Origin: Flaviaestuariibacter flavus
GTDB lineage: Bacteria > Bacteroidota > Bacteroidia > Chitinophagales > Chitinophagaceae
Direction of reading: 5' to 3'
DNA: 64,000 bases
NCBI RefSeq assembly: GCF_004337505.1
Contig: NZ_SJZI01000052.1
Span: 1 to 64,000, forward strand
A program made the translations under genes and the position numbers. Below are positions 30,856 to 56,632 of the stretch, piece by piece. Numbering within the stretch: position 1 is the stretch's first letter; every line of letters begins with the position of its first letter. The notes beneath the pieces were generated by a model. That model was not told the origin of the DNA, searched no databases, and worked only from the letters and a program-made list of their open reading frames with translations.

Positions 30856-32155
30856 TTGTGGTAGTGCTCAGTTAAGTGTGTCATTTATTTATTCAGCCTG
30901 TCTGCGTACTTCAAAGTTAGCTCTGTACGGACGGTTGTCCATCCGAACATGGTGCCTTGCCACCTGGTGTTAGCATTTATGGTGGCCAGGTAGATTTGCT
31001 TGACGATAGCATCTTCGGAAGAGAACGCGCCTTTTGTCTTGGTGACTTTGCGCACCATGCGGTGGTAGCTCTCAATGGGATTGGTGGTATAGATGATTTT
31101 TCTGATAGCAGGCGAGTAGTTGAAGAACGTGCGGAGCCGCTCCCAATTGGTTCGCCAGCTCTTGAAGATGACGCTGTATTTGCTACCCCACTTCTTCTCG
31201 GCTTCCTCCAGGTAGTGCAGGCCCATGGCTGCATTGACGGCCTTATAGATCTGCTTCAGATCGCGCACAAAAGGCTTCAGGTCCTTCCAGTTCATATACT
31301 TCATCGAGTTGCGCATCTGGTGCACCAGGCACAGCTGCACTTCGGTCTGGGGGAATAAGTCTTCTATGGCTTCTGCAAACCCCTTCAGGTTATCGATGCA
31401 GGCAATCAGGATGTCCTGGACACCCCGGTGTCTCAGGTCGGCGAGCACCGAGCGCCAGAAGGCAGCGCCTTCATTTTCACCGAAGTAAATACCGATCACT
31501 TCCTTTTGCCCCTCTGTGGAAACGGCCAGTATGGAGTAGATGGCGCGGGTCTTGACAACGCCGTCCTGGCGGACCTTGAAGTGGATGGCGTCGAGCCACA
31601 CCACGGGATAAACGCTCTCCAGTACCCGGTTTTGCCACTCTTTGATAGCCGGAATGATCCGGTCGGTAATCGCCGTCAGGGTTCCGTCCGAGATATCAAA
31701 GTCATAGATCTCTTTTAGATGCTGCTGGATGTCCGAATAAGATAACCCCATCCCATAGAGGCTTAAAATCTTCTGATCCATGTCCTCGGAGATCACCCGC
31801 TGGCGCTTGGCCACTGTCTGCGGCTCGAAGGAGGCGTCGCGGTCGCGGGGCGAAAAAACAGCAAAACCGCCCAAAGAGCTTTGTATGTTTTTTTGTGTGT
31901 GGCCATTGCGTCGGTTGCCACCACCCCTTTTACCCGCCTTCAGGTGCGCATCCAACTCGCCTTCCAGCGAAGCTTCAATAACGCGCTTTAAAAGTGGTGT
32001 AAAAACACCTTCCGCACCCACTAAAGGCTTGCCTGAACGAAGCTGCTCGCCAGCCTCCCTCACAAAAGCTTCAAAGTCAAATGGTTTCTTCTCCATCGTA
32101 TATCAATTTAATCATTATTAAACTGACACACTTTATTGAGCATACTCTTGATTGT
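30852..32155. mobile_element. Complete IS256-family insertion sequence with target duplication
   Basis: The element runs 30860-32147 (1288 bp), flanked by an exact 8-bp direct repeat TTGATTGT at 30852-30859 and 32148-32155. Its imperfect terminal inverted repeats share TGCTCA and AAGTGTGTCA (18 of 24 outer bases match). One transposase gene fills it. The intact ends, target duplication and full-length transposase suggest a recent, possibly active copy. Confidence 0.92.
30885..32096 (-). CDS. IS256-family (mutator-type) transposase
   Basis: A full-length transposase of 403 aa. The DDE residues are visible as WLDAIHFKVRQDG (first Asp), ILIACIDNLKGFAEAI (second Asp) and TTNPIESYHRMVRK (Glu), with the IS256 signature between them (CLVHQMRNS). 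The N-terminus contains the DNA-binding region (RKRGGGNRRNGHTQK-like). There is no frameshift or internal stop. It lies within 50 bp of both element ends. Confidence 0.95.
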   Translation of the reverse strand: MEKKPFDFEAFVREAGEQLRSGKPLVGAEGVFTPLLKRVIEASLEGELDAHLKAGKRGGGNRRNGHTQKNIQSSLGGFAVFSPRDRDASFEPQTVAKRQRVISEDMDQKILSLYGMGLSYSDIQQHLKEIYDFDISDGTLTAITDRIIPAIKEWQNRVLESVYPVVWLDAIHFKVRQDGVVKTRAIYSILAVSTEGQKEVIGIYFGENEGAAFWRSVLADLRHRGVQDILIACIDNLKGFAEAIEDLFPQTEVQLCLVHQMRNSMKYMNWKDLKPFVRDLKQIYKAVNAAMGLHYLEEAEKKWGSKYSVIFKSWRTNWERLRTFFNYSPAIRKIIYTTNPIESYHRMVRKVTKTKGAFSSEDAIVKQIYLATINANTRWQGTMFGWTTVRTELTLKYADRLNK

Positions 32156-34307: not shown

Positions 34308-34667
34308 ATGAATCGTAAAGAATTAGAGGGGCGCACCCGGCAATTTCATGTTGACGTCATCCGGCTTTGTAAGCGGCTTCCTGGTGATCCTGCCGGTTTT
34401 GAGACGGCAAAACAATTGATTCGTGCGGCCGGTTCGGTTGCCGCTAATTATCGGGCTTCGGCTAGGGCAAAGTCGAACACAGATTTTCATTATAAAATCA
34501 AGGTTGTTCTGGAAGAAGCGGATGAATCGGAATACTGGCTGGGGGTTATAGAAGAAACTATGGTCAACGATATAGAATCACGTCGCTTACGGGTGGAGGC
34601 GCGCGAGCTAACGGCCATTTTTACTGCTTCGGAGAAAACATTGTCAGAAAAGAAAACAAGGAAATAG
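34308..34667 (+). CDS. Four-helix-bundle protein (23S rRNA IVP / bAvd-like)
   Basis: A 119-aa helical protein of the four-helix-bundle family first named from 23S rRNA intervening sequences. The hallmark segments are AAGSVAANYRASARAKSNTDF and KVVLEEADESEYWL. The gene is visibly less GC-rich than its neighbours and is enclosed by near-perfect inverted repeats at 34164-34195 and 34669-34702. The family is related to the Avd accessory protein of diversity-generating retroelements, but no reverse transcriptase is in the window. The molecular function of stand-alone copies is unknown. Transfer as a small cassette is my inference. Confidence 0.88.
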   Translation: MNRKELEGRTRQFHVDVIRLCKRLPGDPAGFETAKQLIRAAGSVAANYRASARAKSNTDFHYKIKVVLEEADESEYWLGVIEETMVNDIESRRLRVEARELTAIFTASEKTLSEKKTRK

Positions 34668-38332: not shown

Positions 38333-39841
38333 TTATTCATAGCGAACGAATACCGAGCTGTCTGGCAGCAGTGGGTAGTGCTGCCCGAAGCGCTGGTTGA
38401 ACAGGTACCGGAACAGGTTCACCGGGCTTTGTTCCGGCGAAAGCCCGCCGTAGGCGCTGTCGGGATAATAAATCGCGCAAAGGTTTTTAAAGGCATCGGC
38501 CTTGTGCGCTTTTTCGAGGCGGCTGCCATGATCGCTAAGCAGCAGGATAATCGAATTCTTTTTCCCGTTTTCCCGGATACAGGAAATAAGGTCCAGCATT
38601 TCCCGGTTGGCCACGCGCACCTGGTCGAGGTAATCGCTGACGCCTTCTTCGTGGAGCACCCGGTCGGCGGGCTTGCGCCGACCGGCGCTGTCAAATAGAA
38701 AAGGCTTGTGGGTAAGCAGCAGGTGACAATATACCAGCCGCGGCGCGCGGCGGGCGCTGTCGGCACTGCGGCAGGTTTCGTCCAGGTAATACCGGATGTC
38801 ACGCTCGCGCTGATCCAGGTCGAAATAGTGGTAAGGCTTCGAGGTGATGAGCGCGGTAAGGGGCTCGCCACGCCAGCCAAGATCGCGCACAAGGCGGGAG
38901 GTGAAGAGCCCGCCGAATACCTGCACATAAGTGAAGTTGCCGAATTCGTTGAGGCTTTTGCGCTTCTGGTACGGGTTGTCGAGCGAGGCGTAGAAGCGCA
39001 GCTCGTAACCCATCTTCCGGAAGATGCGGAAGGTTTCATTGTCGCTCACCGAATGCACGGCGCGCAGCATCAGCACCGGGTCCGTGCCATTGGTGCCGGA
39101 TGCCGGATCCACGTAGCGCATGTTGAGGCAGCTGCCCATGGCATAGGGCGTGAAGTTGTAGTTGGCGCGGCTGCTGTCGGCCACAAAGAATCGGAGTGCG
39201 CGCAGACTGTCGACAAAAGGCTGGTTGTTGAAGCCCATACGCTGCAAGGCATCGGCGCGGCTGTACTCATCCAGCACCAGCACATACACGTCGGGCTTCT
39301 CCGGTTGCGGCATCGCCGGCTGAAAGCGCTCCGAGAGCGGCATATCGGCGATGATCAGATTGTGATGGCGGCGGTAATCGCTGTAGCGGAATACGGAGGT
39401 CACCGCTTCGGTGGCGCACAACACCAGCAGCAGCAGGTTGAGATAATAATAGACCGGTTTGCCGGCGCGCCGGGCGCGGATGCACCCACGGGCCGCCAGC
39501 AGCAGAACGGCCAGCAGGACAAAAGGGAAAAGCTTGTAAGAGACAAGGCGTACGGGCAGCAGTTTCGCCGCGGCGTCATAAACGGCTCCGAAAAAAACGA
39601 AGAAGACGGCGAGGAAAAAAGCAAGCAGTACCGCCGCAGCAGTGGAGCGGAGCAGCAGGCGCGCGCACCCGAAGAACACCGCAATCCAGGTGCCGCAATA
39701 CAGCAGGTACTGGAGGGCTTCGCCGGCGCGCACGAAGCCGAACAGCTCGTTGCCGGCATGCCACAAAGAAAGCATGGGCAGCAGGGCCAGGAAGAGTGGC
39801 CAGCGGTGTAGTGAACGCGGTATGAAACTACGGTTGCTCAT
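38333..39841 (-). CDS. Membrane sulfatase-fold (LTA synthase-like) hydrolase/transferase
   Basis: A 502-aa protein with about five N-terminal transmembrane helices (residues 15-150) and a periplasmic alkaline-phosphatase-superfamily domain. Metal ligands appear in VLVLDEYSRADA and LLLSDHGSRLE. The nucleophile is probably in NYNFTPYAMGSCLNM (Thr or Ser; no sulfatase CxPxR motif). Such proteins include phosphoethanolamine and phosphoglycerol transferases that modify surface glycans or lipids. It overlaps the upstream membrane protein gene by 4 bp. Being divergent from the phosphonate operon, it could act on the same surface polymer, but that is inference. Confidence 0.82.
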   Translation of the reverse strand: MSNRSFIPRSLHRWPLFLALLPMLSLWHAGNELFGFVRAGEALQYLLYCGTWIAVFFGCARLLLRSTAAAVLLAFFLAVFFVFFGAVYDAAAKLLPVRLVSYKLFPFVLLAVLLLAARGCIRARRAGKPVYYYLNLLLLVLCATEAVTSVFRYSDYRRHHNLIIADMPLSERFQPAMPQPEKPDVYVLVLDEYSRADALQRMGFNNQPFVDSLRALRFFVADSSRANYNFTPYAMGSCLNMRYVDPASGTNGTDPVLMLRAVHSVSDNETFRIFRKMGYELRFYASLDNPYQKRKSLNEFGNFTYVQVFGGLFTSRLVRDLGWRGEPLTALITSKPYHYFDLDQRERDIRYYLDETCRSADSARRAPRLVYCHLLLTHKPFLFDSAGRRKPADRVLHEEGVSDYLDQVRVANREMLDLISCIRENGKKNSIILLLSDHGSRLEKAHKADAFKNLCAIYYPDSAYGGLSPEQSPVNLFRYLFNQRFGQHYPLLPDSSVFVRYE

Positions 39842-41436
39842 GGACCTTGGATAACACGCACCTGGTAGGGACGGAGCCTGCCCTGGTGCCAGGGCAGCGC
39901 TCGCAGCCCGAGCGGCTCGCGGTAAAAAAGTTGAAAATAGTGCAGCATATCCTGCTCGTTCCAGCCGATGAGGCAGGCGTTTGCATGTCGGGGAAAGTCG
40001 CGCACCGACTCCAACCCAAAGCGGTGCAAAACCGGAGCGGAAATACGGTGCAGGAAATGTTCGCTCCCGATGATATTATGCATCGGGTAGCGCGCCGGTG
40101 GCTCCCATACCGGGTAGCCGTAAAGCGGGTAATATTCCATGCTTGTAAAAAAGAGCAGGTGCGGGTGCTTCGCCAACAGGGCGTGCGCCTGGCGGAAGGC
40201 CGTACGTTGCTGCAGGTTCGCCCGGTCGTATTGCAGCAGCAGGCGCGCACCCCAGGCCGCTAAAAACAGCGGAAGGGCGAGCAGCCAGCGGCGACGGCCG
40301 GCTTCCGGTGCCGGCTCGTTCGATGCCAGTGCCAGGAGCACCGGGAACCCGAGCAACGTGAACAGGAGGTAGTCGGGCACTTTGGCAAAAAGATAAACGA
40401 GCACTGCCCAGAGTGCAACCGCAATCAGTACACTGCCTGCGAAGGCAAGGAGCACCGCGCGCCTGCGGATGAAAAGCGGTGCTGCCAGCAGGCTTAGGAA
40501 AAACAGGCGGTTATTGATCATGAACCAACGAAAGGTTTCCGAACCGGGATCGACGGCGAAGCCGGGCCGGGTGCCGCGCTGGTAAAGCGCTTCCAGCTTT
40601 TGGGTGGAAAGCACCGCGGTATCGAGCAGCGGGCCGTAGTTAATGAGACGGCTTTCGAGGTAGCCGCTGTCGCCGGGCGCGGGCTTCGCGAGGTTGCGGT
40701 GATTATAAAAACGGTAGGCTACCTGGCGGTAAGCTTCTTCTTCTTTCCAGCCCGGTATGCGTGCCTCGTAATACTGCCGGTGCACAACGTGCAGCAACAG
40801 GATGGTGAGCAGGGCGCCACCAGTCCAGGCGGCCACGCGCAGGCGCGGCTGCCAGCCCCGCCGCAGCAGCCAGAAGGGCGCCGCCAGGGGGAGCAGCGGG
40901 AGGATCACGTGGATGCGGACCAGCGAGGCGGCCACGTAGGTGACCGCGCCGGCCCGGATACTTCTCCCGGTGGGCGGTGCGCCTGTAAACAGCAGCAGCA
41001 CGCCCGCCATGCCGAGCACGAGCGCAGTGTTGGTGAAATTGGGGCTGAGCAGGAAGCGGGCTTCGTATACCCAGAAGAAGAACGTGAAGAAAAGAACGCC
41101 GCGAAGGGGGGCGTTGGCGCGCACGAGACAGAAACTTAAGATGGTGCCTGCCGCCAGGTGGCCCGCAACAAGAAACAGGGAATACCAGTTGATGTTCGCC
41201 GTCAGCACAAACAAAAACTTCAGGGGGAGCGAAAAGATCGGGTGAAGGATATGGTTGTAGTGAACGAGCTCGGTTGGCGGGCTGCCAAAGCCGCCGGAAA
41301 GCTGGTAGAGGATGAAGGCATCTTCCACGGTGCCATATACCGGGTGAAAAGCAACCTGGAACAGCAGCACGTACGCCAGCGTCACGCAAAAGCAAAAAAG
41401 GAGTTGCCGGAACTTGTCGGATCGTTTGGAAAGCAT
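39838..41436 (-). CDS. Polytopic membrane protein, GT-C-like
   Basis: About 532 aa from MLSKRSD (or 548 from 41484) with roughly ten transmembrane helices (LLFCFCVTLAYVLLFQVAF, YSLFLVAGHLAAGTILSF, LLTILLLHVV, FLSLLAAPLF and others) and a soluble C-terminal part. An early periplasmic loop has FHPVYGTVEDAFILYQ, an acidic loop reminiscent of GT-C glycosyltransferases. No family is certain. A coupled sulfatase-fold gene follows (4-bp overlap), suggesting a joint role in building or decorating a surface glycan. Confidence 0.75.
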   Translation of the reverse strand: MLSKRSDKFRQLLFCFCVTLAYVLLFQVAFHPVYGTVEDAFILYQLSGGFGSPPTELVHYNHILHPIFSLPLKFLFVLTANINWYSLFLVAGHLAAGTILSFCLVRANAPLRGVLFFTFFFWVYEARFLLSPNFTNTALVLGMAGVLLLFTGAPPTGRSIRAGAVTYVAASLVRIHVILPLLPLAAPFWLLRRGWQPRLRVAAWTGGALLTILLLHVVHRQYYEARIPGWKEEEAYRQVAYRFYNHRNLAKPAPGDSGYLESRLINYGPLLDTAVLSTQKLEALYQRGTRPGFAVDPGSETFRWFMINNRLFFLSLLAAPLFIRRRAVLLAFAGSVLIAVALWAVLVYLFAKVPDYLLFTLLGFPVLLALASNEPAPEAGRRRWLLALPLFLAAWGARLLLQYDRANLQQRTAFRQAHALLAKHPHLLFFTSMEYYPLYGYPVWEPPARYPMHNIIGSEHFLHRISAPVLHRFGLESVRDFPRHANACLIGWNEQDMLHYFQLFYREPLGLRALPWHQGRLRPYQVRVIQGP

Positions 41437-41532
41437 GGTAGAATGTGCGCGGCTGCGGCCAAATAAACGCAATTTTAGCGACAAGGATGTTACAATGGAG
41501 CCATTGCCCGCAGCGCTCCGCCACCGAATGGC

Positions 41533-41570: not shown

Positions 41571-42872
41571 ATGGATAATCTTGTTTACATCGGCATGAGT
41601 GCCGACCTCATACATCCCGGGCATCTCAATATTATCAGCAGGGGGCGTGAGCTCGGGCCGGTGGTGGTGGGCCTGCTTACCGACGAAGCCATCGCCAGCT
41701 ACAAGCGCGTGCCCTTGCTTAGCTTCGAACAGCGCCGTGCCATTGTGGCCGGCCTCCGCGACGTGAGCGAGGTGGTGGCCCAGGAAACCCTTGACTACAG
41801 CGCCAACCTGCGCCGGCTGCGGCCGCGCTACGTGGTCCACGGCGACGACTGGAAAACAGGCGTGCAGCAAGCCACGCGGCAGCGCGTGATCGAGGTGCTC
41901 GCCGAATGGGGCGGCGAGCTCATTGAGGTTCCCTACACCCGCGGCATTTCCTCCACGGCAATCCAACGCTCGCTCCGCGAGATCGGCATCACACCGGAAG
42001 CCCGCCGCAAGCGCTTCGGGCGACTGCTTTCGGTAAAGCCTATCCTCCGCGCGCTTGAGGCGCACAACGGCCTCAGCGCGATGATCGTGGAAGGCGCTAC
42101 CGCTTTCGACGACGAAGGGCGGGCGCTCGAGTTCGATGCCATCTGGCTTTCCTCGCTCACCGACTCCACCGCCAAGGGCAAGCCCGACATCGAAGCCGTT
42201 GACTTTACCTCGCGCCTGCAAACCGTAAACGAAATTCTCGAGGTGACCACCCGCCCGATCATCTTCGACGGCGACACCGGCGGGCGCATCGACCAGTTCC
42301 CCTTTATGGTACGCACCCTGGAGCGCCTCGGCGTTTCGGCCATTATCGTGGAAGACAAGATCGGCGCCAAGCGCAACTCCTTGCTCGAGGAGAGCTCGGT
42401 GCACGAGCAGGACAGCATCATCGACTTTTGCGAAAAGATCCGCGCCGGCAATGCAAGCCGCATTACCGCGGACTTCCGGATCATTGCCCGCATCGAAAGC
42501 CTCATCCTCGGGAAGGGCATGGAGGACGCCTATGCGCGTGCCGAAGCCTACGTTGCCGCCGGTGCCGGCGGCATCATGATCCACAGCAAGAATACCTCCG
42601 GAGAAGATGTCATCGAATTCGCACGGCGCTTCCGGATGGCGCACCCCGACGTGCCGCTGGTGGCGGTACCGAGCACCTACCCCGCGGTTTCGATTGATGC
42701 CTTGCAGGAGGCCGGTTTTAACCTGGTCATCTATGCCAACCACCTGCTGCGCAGTGCCTACCCGGCGATGGCCCGTACCGCGCAGCGCCTGCTTCGCGAA
42801 GGGCGTGCCGAAGGCGTGGAGCAGGATATCATTTCCATCAAGGATTTTTTTAAACTGATACCCGGGCAATGA
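41571..42872 (+). CDS. aepX: PEP mutase fused to a cytidylyltransferase domain
   Basis: A 433-aa fusion. Residues 1-135 are a nucleotidyltransferase with HPGH at 15-18 and GISSTAIQ near 125-132. Residues about 150-433 are phosphoenolpyruvate mutase with the signature [10 protein letters not shown] at 261-270 and FDGDTGG near 232-238. The mutase makes the C-P bond (PEP to phosphonopyruvate). By analogy with characterised fusions (PntC-type CMP-phosphonate transferases), the N-terminal domain should activate the finished phosphonate as a CMP ester for transfer to a glycan or lipid. It is the first gene of a four-gene operon with 4-bp overlaps. Confidence 0.93.
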
Positions 42873-43975
42873 TCGCGGCATCCGTATTTATACAGTCCCT
42901 GCGTGCATCGGGTGTCGGCTTTTTCGCTGGCGTACCCGATTCCCTGCTTTCCAGTTTCAGCGCGGCGCTGGCGGCTGCGCCCCCGGAGCAGCACCTCGTG
43001 GCCGTCAACGAAGGCGCGGCCCTCGGGCTTGCCGCCGGCTACCATTTTGCCACCGGCGGGCTGCCACTGGTGTATTTGCAGAACTCAGGGCTGGGCAACC
43101 TCGTTAACCCGCTTACCTCCCTGGCCGACCCGACCGTATACAGCATCCCGATGCTGCTGCTGGTAGGATGGCGCGGAGAGCCCGGCCGGCCTGATGAGCC
43201 GCAGCATACCCGCATGGGTGCCGCCACCGGCCCGCTCCTTGAAGCACTGGAGGTGCCCTTGCACTACCTGCATCCGACTGATGGAAACTGGCAGGAAACA
43301 ATACGCCAGGCAGCTGCACAGGCCCTTGGCGAAAGCCGCCCGGTAGCTATCGTAGTGGCCAGGGGTGTTTTTGAGGAATTGGCGCTCCCGCAGCAGGAAG
43401 ACTACCCGCTTTCGGCGGCGTCTGCCATCGATATCCTGTGCACGGGCCTTTCGAAAGGAACCCGCGTTGTGTGCAGCACCGGCAAGATCGGCCGCATTTT
43501 CAACGAATGGAACAACGGGCAGGAACAACCGCTTGATGCTTTGCTGAACGTTGGTGCCATGGGGCACGCCGGCAGCATCGCCACCGCCATCGCCCTGCAC
43601 AGCAACGGGCCGGTTCTGGTACTGGATGGCGACGGCGCCCTACTGATGCACCTCGGCGCATTGGCACTTTCCGGCAGCCTGGGGCTGGACAACCTGTTTT
43701 ATGTCGTGCTCAACAACGGGGCGCACGAATCGGTTGGTCGCCAGCCCACACTTGGCTTCCGCACCGACTTTGTGTGCATTGCCAAAGCCTGCGGCTTCCG
43801 CTTCGCGTCGCGGCTCACAACGGCAGCCGACCTGCATGGCTGGAACCGTCATGGCGATGCCCGCGGCGCCTTTGTAGAAATACGGATCAACACCCATACA
43901 CCCGCGAAGCTGTCGCGCCCTTCGGAAGAACCCCGGTTAGCGGGCGCGCGTTTCCGAAAATCCTTTGAGCAATGA
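42869..43975 (+). CDS. aepY: Phosphonopyruvate decarboxylase
   Basis: A 368-aa thiamine-diphosphate enzyme that decarboxylates phosphonopyruvate to phosphonoacetaldehyde, the irreversible step that pulls PEP mutase forward. The N-terminal Pyr domain has [13 protein letters not shown] and the catalytic Glu in [17 protein letters not shown]. The C-terminal PP domain has the ThDP/Mg motif [12 protein letters not shown] ... [10 protein letters not shown]. It overlaps aepX by 4 bp and the next gene by 4 bp. Confidence 0.94.
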
Positions 43976-45012
43976 TGACGCCTGCCTACCGCATTGGTGC
44001 TGTGGCACCGCAGCTGGAACAGTTGCTACGCGGTGCCGCGGCGGAAAAAGTGTTGCTGGTGGGAGGCGGGCATTTCATCCGGTCGGCTGCAGCGGCCGAC
44101 CTGCGGACCCGTCTCGGGGACCGGCTTGTATCCGGGTTTGAAGTACCGGCGGGACTCCTCCAGCAAAGCGTCCTGGAGCCGGTTGCCGCCGCCATGACAG
44201 CGGGGATTGATTCGGTGATCGTCATCGGTGGCGGCCGAAGCATCGACTGCGCCAAAGCACTTTTGTATTATGCCCGCAAGGAGACACGCCTCTTTGTGGC
44301 GGTGCCCACCACTGCGGGCAGTGGTTCCGATGCTACCTCCTTTGCCGTGGTGTACCGCGGTACGGAAAAAATTTCACTGGAGCACCCGGCCCTGCTGCCC
44401 CATGCGGTAGTTTGGGACGTCGAATTGCTCCGGGGCCTGCCTGCCCGGCAGCGGGCCCTGTCGGGCCTCGATGCGCTTGCACAATGCGTTGAGGCACTCT
44501 GGAGCCGGCGGGCCACACCGGCATCGTCGGTGCGCGCCTGGGAAGCCGGAAGCTGGCTGCGGGCCAACCTGCCTGCGTTCGTTCGGGAGCCCGGCAACGA
44601 TGACCTGGCGCTCGGTGCATTATATGCGGCGCACGGCTCGGGCGCGGCCATCCAGCAAAGCCGCACCACGGGCGCGCATGCACTCTCGTATTACCTCACG
44701 GCCGTCCATGGCATCGACCACGGCCATGCCGTAGCGCTGCTCTTGCCTGTATTTCTACGGTACAACACGGCGTCGGGAGCGGGTTACGACTCGGCGCTTC
44801 AGCTCCTGGGTGCCGCCAATGGTGAGGAGGCGGCCTCGGGATGGCAGGCTTTTGTGGCCGGGCTGGGCCTTGCCGCCCGCCTGTCTGACCTGGGCCTTTC
44901 TCCCCGTTGTATCCCGGAATGGTTTACCCATATCAACGCAGAACGATTTGCCAATAACCCGGTACCTTTCCGGGCCGCGGAACTCGAAGCAGTGCTCCGC
45001 GCAACCTGGTAG
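43972..45012 (+). CDS. Fe-type alcohol dehydrogenase, probable phosphonoacetaldehyde reductase
   Basis: A 346-aa group III metal-dependent alcohol dehydrogenase: VIGGGRSIDCAKAL (nucleotide binding), PTTAGSGSDAT, SGLDALAQCVEAL and HGIDHGHAVALLLP (metal ligands). Position after aepX-aepY and PhpC-like length indicate reduction of phosphonoacetaldehyde to 2-hydroxyethylphosphonate rather than transamination to 2-aminoethylphosphonate; no aepZ-type aminotransferase is in the operon. Two adjacent ATGs are possible starts. Confidence 0.87.
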   Translation: MMTPAYRIGAVAPQLEQLLRGAAAEKVLLVGGGHFIRSAAAADLRTRLGDRLVSGFEVPAGLLQQSVLEPVAAAMTAGIDSVIVIGGGRSIDCAKALLYYARKETRLFVAVPTTAGSGSDATSFAVVYRGTEKISLEHPALLPHAVVWDVELLRGLPARQRALSGLDALAQCVEALWSRRATPASSVRAWEAGSWLRANLPAFVREPGNDDLALGALYAAHGSGAAIQQSRTTGAHALSYYLTAVHGIDHGHAVALLLPVFLRYNTASGAGYDSALQLLGAANGEEAASGWQAFVAGLGLAARLSDLGLSPRCIPEWFTHINAERFANNPVPFRAAELEAVLRATW

Positions 45013-45017
45013 ATGCC

Positions 45018-46112
45018 ATGCTTTCCTTTTTCAAAGAATACAGCGACAGCCAGAAACTCGTGGCGCAGCAATACGACATCGTGTTTTACACGGAAGGCGC
45101 CTACTATTTTCAATACCTGCGGCACCTGTTCGAAGCATTTGCCGGTCGTCCGGGACTGCGGATCGCTTATATCAGCTCCGAGAAGAGCGACCCGGTACTG
45201 AACACAAAAATCCAGGGCCTCGACACCTGGTATATCCGCAAAACCCTGCTGTTTGTGTGGCCGCGCCTGCAGGCCAAAGTGCTGATCAGCACGATGCCGG
45301 GCATCGGCCAGCACGGCTATAAGCGCTCCCCGGGAATCGGTCGTTACGTCTATGTATTTCATGCGCTGGTAAGCACCCACCAGCAATACCGCCCCGGTGC
45401 GTTCCGCTACTATGACGCTTTATTTTGCTGCGGTCCCGACCATGAGGCGGAGGCAGGTAAGGAGGATGCGCTCGAGGGTATCCCCCCGCGCGACCTCATT
45501 GCTTACGGTTATCCACTCCTCGAAGACTTGCGGTTGAAGGATTCCGGCCAGGAGCCCTGCATCCTGCTGGCGCCGAGCTGGCACCCGGAGGGTATCCTGA
45601 ACACCTGCCTGAAACCGCTGCTGGAGCAGTTGCTACAGCTTGGGTTGCCGGTGCAGGTACGGCCACATCCCGAGTTTGTAAAACGCAACCCCAAAGCAAT
45701 GAAAGAACTTGAGGCCCAGGTCCGCCGCAACCCGCGCCTGTCCATCGACCGGTCGGCTGAAGTATTTACACAACTGGCTGCCGCCCGGCTGCTGGTAACC
45801 GACCGCTCGGGCATTGCCCTTGAATACGCATTTGCGCGGCGCCGGCCGGTGCTGTTTGTCGATACACCACCGAAGGTTTATAACCCTGATTTCGGCGCGC
45901 TCGGGCTTACCCCGACGGAAGACCGGCTGCGGCCGCTGCTGGGGCGATCGGTGGCACCGGGTGAAATAGAAAAAGCGGCCTCCGTTGCTGCAACATTGCT
46001 TGCGGAGGCCGCCTCGTTTGCGCCCGTATTGGAAAAGCTGGAAGCCGAAACGGTTTATGGTCCGGCTTACTGGTCCAACGGGATCGCTTATATCGAGTCC
46101 TGTTTATCCTGA
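45018..46112 (+). CDS. CDP-glycerol glycerophosphotransferase-like (TagB/TagF) protein
   Basis: A 364-aa GT-B-like protein resembling the TagB/TagF family, which transfers polyol phosphate from a CDP carrier. Matching parts are VRPHPEFVKRNPKAM, a DRSGIALEYAFARRRPVLFVD-type acceptor-site region (seen as VTDRSGIALEYAF), and ISTMPGIGQHGYKRS. It lies 5 bp after the reductase gene, as the last gene of the phosphonate operon. The natural reading is that it transfers the CMP-activated hydroxyethylphosphonate to a surface acceptor. Its last 25 bp overlap a convergent small gene. Confidence 0.85.
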   Translation: MLSFFKEYSDSQKLVAQQYDIVFYTEGAYYFQYLRHLFEAFAGRPGLRIAYISSEKSDPVLNTKIQGLDTWYIRKTLLFVWPRLQAKVLISTMPGIGQHGYKRSPGIGRYVYVFHALVSTHQQYRPGAFRYYDALFCCGPDHEAEAGKEDALEGIPPRDLIAYGYPLLEDLRLKDSGQEPCILLAPSWHPEGILNTCLKPLLEQLLQLGLPVQVRPHPEFVKRNPKAMKELEAQVRRNPRLSIDRSAEVFTQLAAARLLVTDRSGIALEYAFARRRPVLFVDTPPKVYNPDFGALGLTPTEDRLRPLLGRSVAPGEIEKAASVAATLLAEAASFAPVLEKLEAETVYGPAYWSNGIAYIESCLS

Positions 46113-55434: not shown

Positions 55435-55495
55435 CGGCCGTAACGCTTGCAATATGCCGGAAACACTCTTCCAACCCGTAACAACGGCCGCCGCT

Positions 55496-56632
55496 ATGAC
55501 TGACAACCGCATCTATTTCGACAACGCCGCCACGACGCCCCTCGATCCCGAGGTGCTGCAGACGATGTTGCCGTATATGCAGACGCATTTCGGCAATCCT
55601 TCGTCGATCTATTCGTACGGACGTGAAACGCGGCTGGCCATCGAAACGGCGCGTAAAACGGTCGCCCGCCTGCTGGGCACCCGCCCCGGCGCGATCTTCT
55701 TTACTTCCGGCGGTACGGAGAGCAATAACACCGCCATCGCCGCCGCCGTGCGCGATCTCGGCTGCCGCCATATCATCACCTCGCCCATCGAGCACCACGC
55801 CGTGCTCCATACCGTGGAATACTGGGCCCATGGCAACGAGGTGACCCACAGCTTCGTGGCACTGAAAGAAGACGGATCGGTGAACATCTCCGACCTCGAC
55901 CGCCAGCTGGCCGAACAGCACGCCAAAGGCGTACGCTGCCTCGTGACACTGATGCATGCCAACAACGAGATCGGCGTGCTGCTGCCGATCAAGAAGGTGG
56001 GAGAGACCTGCAAGAAATACGACGCGATTTTCCACTCCGACTGCGTGCAGACCGTCGGGCATTACCCGCTGAAGCTCGACGAGCTGAATGTACATTTCAT
56101 CTCGGGCGCCGGCCACAAGTTTCACGGGCCCAAGGGTACGGGAATCCTCTATGTGAGCGAGGATGTCAACATCAAGCCCTATATCCTAGGCGGCGGCCAG
56201 GAGCGCAATATGCGCGCCGGCACCGAAAACGTTTATGGCATCGTGGGCTTCGCCAAGGCGCTTGAGATCGCCATGGACAACTACGACGCCGACAGCCAGT
56301 ATATCCAGGGGCTGCGCCGCCACATGCGTGGGCGCGTTGAGGCCGAGATCCCGGGTGTGAGCTTCAACTGCAGCGCCGATTCGCTTTATACGGTGCTTTC
56401 CGTGTGTTTTCCGAAAAACGAAAAGACCGAGTTCCTGCTGATGAACCTCGACATGCGCCACATCTGCGTGTCGGGCGGCTCGGCCTGCTCCTCGGGCGCC
56501 GATATCGGCTCGCACGTGATGAAGGCCCTCAACAAGGCCAACGACTGGGTGACGATCCGCTTCTCCTTCAGCCGCTTCAATACGATCGATGAAATTGACC
56601 GGGTGGTGGATGCGTTGAAAGAATTGGTTTAG
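55496..56632 (+). CDS. Cysteine desulfurase (IscS/NifS family)
   Basis: A 378-aa PLP enzyme that takes sulfur from cysteine for Fe-S clusters and thio-cofactors. Signatures are IYFDNAATTPLDPEV, TSGGTESNNTAI, the PLP Lys in SGAGHKFHGPKG and the catalytic Cys in SGGSACSSGADIGS, all in the group I (NifS/IscS) arrangement. The start at 55496 matches the family N-terminus; the ATG at 55454 adds 14 residues and sits closer to the -7 element, so it is a real alternative. Aconitase, an Fe-S enzyme, lies nearby but separately transcribed. Confidence 0.93.
   Translation: MTDNRIYFDNAATTPLDPEVLQTMLPYMQTHFGNPSSIYSYGRETRLAIETARKTVARLLGTRPGAIFFTSGGTESNNTAIAAAVRDLGCRHIITSPIEHHAVLHTVEYWAHGNEVTHSFVALKEDGSVNISDLDRQLAEQHAKGVRCLVTLMHANNEIGVLLPIKKVGETCKKYDAIFHSDCVQTVGHYPLKLDELNVHFISGAGHKFHGPKGTGILYVSEDVNIKPYILGGGQERNMRAGTENVYGIVGFAKALEIAMDNYDADSQYIQGLRRHMRGRVEAEIPGVSFNCSADSLYTVLSVCFPKNEKTEFLLMNLDMRHICVSGGSACSSGADIGSHVMKALNKANDWVTIRFSFSRFNTIDEIDRVVDALKELV

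Follow-up and report, generated by a model that had tools for sequence, protein, structure and literature searches.

The biosynthesis of fosfomycin in Streptomyces wedmorensis opens with the three proteins Fom1, Fom2 and FomC. Fom1 makes the cytidine monophosphate (CMP) ester of 2-hydroxyethylphosphonate (HEP), CMP-HEP (Rice 2019, PMC6697681). That publication describes, as phosphonyl tailoring (Pnt), the cytidylyl activation of phosphonates by PntC or by nucleotidyltransferases fused to phosphoenolpyruvate (PEP) mutase (Ppm); it reports PF01467 as fused to 23.6% of the Ppm enzymes, demonstrates the CMP ester of 2-aminoethylphosphonate (AEP), CMP-AEP, with PF12804 enzymes, mentions LicD-like transferases, and calls the steps that follow formation of the carbon-phosphorus (C-P) bond in surface phosphonate pathways enigmatic. 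Nucleotidyl activation of phosphonates for cell surfaces is, by that work, already established. Here we describe a four-gene operon that very probably produces an activated C-P compound and links it to a component of the cell. It lies in a stretch of 64,000 nucleotides (the window) from Flaviaestuariibacter flavus (contig NZ_SJZI01000052.1, positions 1 to 64,000). The genes concerned, with two neighbours, are as follows.

g1, 41571..42872, plus strand: cytidylyltransferase (CyTase) fused to PEP mutase (PepM), 433 amino acids (aa); recognized by its open reading frame (ORF), Pfam and NCBIfam profiles, a PDB match and motifs.
g2, 42869..43975, plus strand: phosphonopyruvate decarboxylase, a thiamine pyrophosphate enzyme, 368 aa; recognized by its ORF and by Pfam and NCBIfam profiles.
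g3, 43972..45012, plus strand: reductase of the iron-type alcohol dehydrogenase (ADH) family, the proposed phosphonoacetaldehyde reductase leading to HEP, 346 aa.
g4, 45018..46112, plus strand: divergent TagF/TarL-like GT-B protein, the proposed transferase of HEP from CMP-HEP, 364 aa.
u2, 38333..39841, minus strand: membrane protein with an EptA/LtaS-type sulfatase-fold domain, divergent from the operon, a proposed partner, 502 aa.
u1, 39838..41484, minus strand: protein with many hydrophobic segments, between u2 and g1, a possible accessory, 548 aa.

The four genes of the operon had been recognized in an initial annotation of the window, and all are confirmed as plus-strand ORFs. Its description of them as overlapping fits the g1/g2 and g2/g3 junctions (4 nucleotides each) but not g3/g4, which are separated by a gap of 5 nucleotides. 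A gene for an M42 peptidase comes after the operon. The order of all four genes is the same in seven of the eight other loci of the window's family (L032-L037, L113); in the eighth (L112), g3 was overlooked by the ORF caller and recovered by tblastn (locus L003, same genome). The caller likewise gave no g1 in five rows where g1 is known to be present (L047, L073, L090, L105 and the window). The nearest named records are Chitinophagaceae bacterium PMG_218, Flaviaesturariibacter sp. and Flavisolibacter longurius. A scan of the sequence found three promoter-like sites (1.7 in shuffles) and one terminator-like site (5.2 in shuffles).

We consider it fairly probable that the operon makes CMP-HEP and decorates an envelope molecule as part of a u2 system in which another gene, here called X, is the alternative. 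This reading is based on gene content, kept gene order, motifs, predicted folds, co-occurrence, mutual exclusion and a common chromosomal site. The enzymatic steps, as predicted from sequence, would begin with the C-terminal domain of g1, which would convert PEP to phosphonopyruvate; g2 would turn this into phosphonoacetaldehyde and g3 would turn the latter into HEP, whereupon the N-terminal domain of g1 would combine HEP with cytidine triphosphate to give CMP-HEP. The g4 protein would then pass the HEP phosphonyl group from CMP-HEP to an acceptor hydroxyl, releasing CMP, and a surface glycan or lipid is a plausible acceptor. The u2 protein would probably transfer or process the decorated group on the periplasmic side, and the operon and X would provide one and the same u2 system with different groups, HEP being one of the two. 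Both u2, a conserved neighbour, and X, an alternative at the same site, lie outside the account given in the initial annotation.

The proposal that the operon makes CMP-HEP is well supported. The fusion in g1 is borne out by scores above the Pfam cutoffs for CTP_transf_like (47.9 bits, cutoff 21) and PEP_mutase (179.7, cutoff 31.5) and above the NCBIfam cutoff for PEP mutase (TIGR02320, 375.6 vs 319.55). The CyTase domain occupies residues ~1-140, with HPGH and ISST motifs, and the PEP mutase domain residues of about 150-432, with the EDKX5NS motif at residue 261; this motif is kept in 78 of 79 aligned rows. The top PDB match of the CyTase domain is the N-terminal domain of Fom1 (5x3d, 2.1e-57). 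Among the 79 rows (window included) 47 CyTase positions are near-invariant, and Fom1 agrees at 46 of these, the 47th being outside the Fom1 stretch compared. By sequence and conserved residues, the domain belongs with the Fom1-type HEP cytidylyltransferases. The g2 protein exceeds the cutoff for phosphonopyruvate decarboxylase (TIGR03297, 340.3 vs 312.5), again as annotated.

AEP was considered as the product and rejected, because no AEP transaminase scores above cutoff in the genome, which is 85.8% complete (the best TIGR02326 match has 32.8 vs 400.8 bits), and because the sole class-V aminotransferase among the window genes scanned (55454-56632) is NifS-like, with 379 bits to that model (below its cutoff) vs 29 to the AEP transaminase model. 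HEP is accordingly preferred to AEP, as in the initial annotation.

The third gene was described initially as an Fe-type ADH. This is correct by family, since g3 exceeds the Pfam Fe-ADH cutoff (79.8 vs 31.3), but two of the three canonical His ligands have been replaced. In a census of 82 CyTase-PepM loci (80 plus two from a second search), g3 homologs of 320-440 aa could be aligned from 70 loci, giving 71 rows with the window. At the D-H-H-H positions that we take, by reference to FucO, to be the metal ligands, g3 has D167, Q171, Y240 and H250. Because the third ligand position is Tyr in all 71 rows, and the second is mostly Gln (50 rows, His in the other 21), an iron-dependent mechanism seems doubtful for the ADHs of CyTase-PepM clusters, which are possibly metal-free or other-metal reductases. 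A plasmid search with g3 returned 1743 records, all with less than 60% identity, of which at least 20 are annotated as iron-containing ADHs. Two census loci depart from the usual arrangement of these genes: in L043 a single ORF of 778 aa seems to span the decarboxylase and ADH matches, as an apparent fusion, and the cyanobacterial contig L103 has two adjoining CyTase-PepM genes with u2 alongside, g4 ~7 kb off and no ADH match.

For g4, no Pfam or NCBIfam match was found at 1e-3, and phmmer with g4 alone found nothing in the PDB at E 1. At the level of its family, a comparison with PF04464 at E 0.01 picks up 14 of 17 members, and the profile of the family reaches the polymerase TarL at 1.3e-6, with just one other match (E 1). 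The structure model of g4, with a mean pLDDT of 94.2, shows one GT-B domain and no membrane segments, and Foldseek places TagF at ranks 1-7 for it (best 1.5e-10). The RPHP and TDRSG segments of g4 line up with HP and SDYSS of TarL, and the conserved residues are H115, R215-x-H217-P218 and D262-x-S264. A related protein in L065 matches TarF with 96.8 bits, short of the cutoff of 550. We regard g4 as TagF-like by remote profile, fold and co-occurrence with g1, and infer that it would transfer HEP from CMP-HEP.

The co-occurrence is exact among 195 related genomes, where full-length g1 (counted at 1e-180 or better) and g4 (E 0.001) are found in the identical nine genomes and in no others. At E 0.001, g1 lists 124 of the 195, the matches beyond the nine being partial and 1.6e-18 or weaker. 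Within the 82-locus census, g4-type genes (blastp 2e-30 or better) are present in 18 loci, which outside the window's family come from records named Obscuribacterales, cyanobacterium, Sedimentisphaerales, Planctomycetota, Woeseiaceae, Desulfobotulus, Salinivirgaceae and Bacteroidales; the g4-type gene is upstream of g1 in L089 and ~7 kb from it in L103. The distances of g1 and g4 are correlated (r 0.61, 21 rows, 0 of 5000 permutations), also outside the family (r 0.50, 12 rows, 5 of 5000 permutations), as would be expected of sequences inherited jointly. Genes of the PF04464 or LicD type come after the HEP genes in other clusters as well: the census contains at least 33 loci with PF04464-type genes and 33 with LicD, four having both and 20 neither, the PF04464-type count being a lower bound because several "neither" loci are contig ends and at least one PF04464 protein, that of L048, was missed by the profile. 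Two further neighbours of such genes might be mentioned. A B12-binding radical SAM gene, of a kind that could methylate CMP-HEP, stands right after g4 in a Planctomycetota record (L107:13741-15195), and a CDP-alcohol phosphatidyltransferase gene, which may point to a phosphonolipid, comes after the CyTase-PepM gene in a Nanoarchaeota record (L109:10305-10976).

A u2 homolog stands divergently beside g1 in all nine operon genomes, at 0.9 kb or less in eight and at 1.7 kb in the window, where u1 comes between them. The u1 protein has no Pfam match, and its homologs among the loci examined occur only in L032 and in the operon-less L163 (28%), each beside a u2 gene. The u2 protein has N-terminal hydrophobic helices (within 17-159) followed by a sulfatase-fold domain (model mean pLDDT 82.8). 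Its own score against PF00884 lies under the gathering score (21.7 vs 25), and nine of 13 family members match at E 0.01; the profile of the family matches MCR-1 (1.2e-4) and LtaS (2.8e-4). Foldseek ranks EptA first (5fgn, 7.8e-9), and in the order by Z the list is headed by YejM, EptC and sulfatases, with values of 21.4 to 18.5. All 18 members retain D191, T231, D437 and H438, and 17 of the 18 have H378; by the alignment with MCR-1 these residues presumably provide the nucleophile Thr and the metal ligands. In helices, fold and these residues, u2 is of the EptA/LtaS type.

The association of such proteins with g4 extends beyond the family. Sulfatase-fold genes occur in 16 of the 18 g4-type loci, eight of these 16 being from the window's family, vs none of the 64 other census loci (mean locus lengths 18.2 kb vs 15.5 kb). 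The profile used was built from the u2 homologs of the census loci themselves, and the result was rechecked by single-sequence searches and by motif. At E 0.01, searches with the most distant members (L040, L089, L100, L107) found no locus beyond the 18 of the g4 type, and the sole motif match outside them is a minus-strand frame in L099; seven profile matches there, at E 0.0027 to 1.3, are taken as chance. One of the two exceptions, L056, is a contig that stops within a YidC-like gene. In three Bacteroidota loci (L040:13874-16879, L052:5427-8471, L064:11132-14821) the gene right after g4 combines a YidC-like (60KD_IMP) domain with a sulfatase domain.

Nine operon-less loci with u2 were fetched as a control. 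The M42 gene is in view in six of these (L127, L129, L131, L132, L163, L164), and in all six the gene X, of ~458 aa, lies between M42 and u2; a seventh (L130) is a short contig on which just these two genes, X and u2, are seen. Examples of X are these.

L127:7570-8940, gene X.
L129:7423-8796, gene X.
L163:8071-9459, gene X.

Among the 195 genomes, X (at E 1e-20) occurs in 35 and g1 in nine, and no genome has both. The u2 gene (at E 0.001) occurs in 46, of which 34 have X, nine have g1 and three have neither (G090, G092, G124); the 149 genomes without u2 include one with X (G098) and none with g1. Fisher's test gives 2e-38, a value that, given the kinship of the genomes, is no true probability. 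Weak u2 matches are found in the X genomes G032, G068 and G073 (2.5e-8 to 8.7e-5) and in G124 (1.4e-10). In the window's genus, u2 is present in 13 of 18 genomes, seven with g1 and six with X, and the other five carry none of the three. X and u2 are within 1.5 kb of each other in 27 of the 35 X genomes. In a sample from the whole phylum (n=287), u2 is found at 1e-30 in five genomes, namely the window's own, with g1, and four with X.

A number of observations weigh against the reading that joins the operon, u2 and X in one system. The u2 gene occupies its site also in the absence of the operon, so that, within the family, its place beside g1 reflects in part plain synteny. Its membership in the pathway on the strength of adjacency alone was accordingly dropped, and the link is retained because of the co-occurrence in the 195 genomes and the sulfatase-fold link in other groups. 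Two of the operon-less loci (L126, L128; genomes G003, G013) have u2 elsewhere, with X 178 and 182 bp from M42; four of the eight X genomes in the phylum sample (n=287) are without a u2 match at 1e-30; and the mutual exclusion rests on related genomes, the test being inflated by common ancestry. L045 has the four-gene set with no sulfatase-fold gene detected. In a phylum sample of 296 genomes, g1 at E 1e-60 is in six and a g4-profile match at 1e-10 in 15, the full-length g4 only in the window's own, and five of the six g1 loci are without a g4-type match; because of these loci, the first three genes must be said to serve other transferases as well. The g3 protein is far under the equivalog for the phosphonate iron ADH PsrA (TIGR03405, 143.9 vs 423.7). 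The g4 protein itself scores 14 bits against PF04464, short of the gathering cutoff of 22.1, so that evidence from profile and fold is needed for its TagB/TagF identity, and the PF04464 search of its own genome found nothing at E 0.001 and no clear TagF-type gene elsewhere. By fold, TagF (Z 21.1) and UDP-GlcNAc 2-epimerases (20.6) are tied, for which reason fold alone is not decisive, and a related PF04464 gene in L053 is also over the epimerase cutoff. The initial label of TagB/TagF-like transferase is supported for g4 at the level of the family (homologs, profile and fold) and by its co-occurrence with g1, but not by the score of the window protein, and the fold by itself is ambiguous.

Some of these points would be accommodated if CMP-HEP were made and attached by g4 to a lipid or glycan precursor, with u2 and X as mere neighbours at the site and unrelated to the phosphonate, an explanation that we hold to be unlikely but worth keeping in view. 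It would agree with the presence of u2 near M42 in operon-less genomes, with the occurrence of u2 homologs in as many as 46 of the 195 genomes and with the four X genomes of the phylum sample that have no u2 match at the threshold used. It would not readily explain why 43 of the 46 u2 genomes have X or g1, vs one of the 149 without u2, why the co-occurrence of X and u2 holds even where they are 54 kb (G013) and 398 kb (G003) apart, or why, in other groups too (L040, L051, L052, L064, L089, L100, L103, L107), clusters of the g4 type come with sulfatase-fold genes.

A different division of labour, in which preparing the acceptor would be the task of g4, as a nucleotide-sugar enzyme (a GT-B epimerase or glycosyltransferase), and another protein would transfer HEP, takes its appeal from the tie by fold and from the L053 gene; we find it improbable, as the profile of the g4 family leads to TarL and to no epimerase, and the epimerase family is matched at E 0.01 by none of the members of which 14 of 17 match PF04464. 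It is very improbable that g4, in the manner of TagF, polymerises HEP by linking the units through their hydroxyl, which would give a phosphonate counterpart of poly(glycerol phosphate). HEP, but not AEP, does have a free hydroxyl at its far end, and both the polymerase TarL by profile and TagF by Foldseek come first for g4; the 364-aa protein is, however, a single GT-B domain, enzymes of the TarF type that make single transfers belong to the same family, and we know of no precedent for the polymerisation of HEP. Hardly any likelihood is left for a soluble phosphonate (a fosfomycin-like antibiotic or methylphosphonate) with some other role for g4, in spite of the first three genes being the opening steps of fosfomycin biosynthesis, since g4 accompanies g1 in nine of the nine g1 genomes among the 195, and the scan for a radical-SAM methylase, which covered 20 genes of the window but neither its other genes nor the remaining genome, found none.

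Returning to the view that the operon decorates an envelope molecule within a u2 system, we might tentatively go one step further and suggest that in the Chitinophagaceae a single surface group is made with either of two chemistries, phosphate with methylation, through X, or HEP, through the operon, and that both serve the same u2 membrane transferase. The X protein has a weak match to S-adenosylmethionine (SAM) methyltransferases, with Trm5 and TehB matching better than WbdD (0.01), and its D117-x4-N122-x11-D134 pattern, invariant in seven of seven rows, is a lead towards a kinase-type catalytic loop; a PDB search with the N-terminal part gave two chance-level matches (best RIO3 kinase, E 0.49). 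If this exchange is real, HEP would directly take over the function of a phosphate ester at one fixed slot in the genome, being similar in size and charge to the group made by X and having a C-P bond that phosphatases are unable to split. Other features of the window include a Mutator-family transposase gene (30885-32096) and, farther along, one that encodes a 23S rRNA intervening-sequence protein (34308-34667).

In the open literature searched, outside of which lie most subscription journals, we found no description of a TagF-like transferase in an HEP cluster, of the link of an HEP operon to an EptA/LtaS-like protein or of its alternation with X; one paper has a gene table in which BT1716, a protein of the CDP-glycerol glycerophosphotransferase family, is listed near aepX (BT1720). 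What appears to be new here is thus the HEP version with a TagF-like transferase, the EptA/LtaS-like link and the alternation with X. A compact four-gene set that recurs in several bacterial groups points to g4 as a candidate for the CMP-HEP transferase and to u2 as a candidate for a membrane partner. In one bacterial family a whole phosphonate operon and one other gene alternate at a shared site, and relatives that carry the operon, X or neither offer a clean comparison through which the function of surface phosphonates, and the enzyme that attaches them, become testable.

The comparison with known systems can be drawn gene by gene. WbdD methylates the phosphate that it places on a sugar (PMC3482155), and X resembles it in combining a methyltransferase domain with a kinase-like part; X differs in an apparently reversed order of domains and in a kinase part that consists of no more than a motif. 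The u2 protein is like the EptA/MCR phosphoethanolamine transferases and LtaS in its N-terminal helices, sulfatase fold and retained Thr and metal ligands, and unlike them in being linked to an HEP operon or to gene X. The g4 protein shares with TagF/TarL (PF04464) the GT-B fold and the HP and D-x-S motifs, and differs in its score below the gathering level, its proposed phosphonate donor, its Bacteroidota host and its single domain. The first three genes parallel Fom1-Fom2-FomC in the CyTase-PEP mutase fusion, the decarboxylase, the ADH-family reductase, the expected CMP-HEP and the near-invariant CyTase positions; the operon departs from that series in its added TagF-like gene, in the lack of a radical-SAM methylase among the 20 genes scanned and in the distance of g3 from TIGR03405. 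With the Pnt pathways the operon has in common a cytidylyl-activated phosphonate for a proposed attachment to the surface, and it is set apart from that work, with its PF12804 enzymes, CMP-AEP and LicD-like transferases, by PF01467, HEP and a TagF-like gene.

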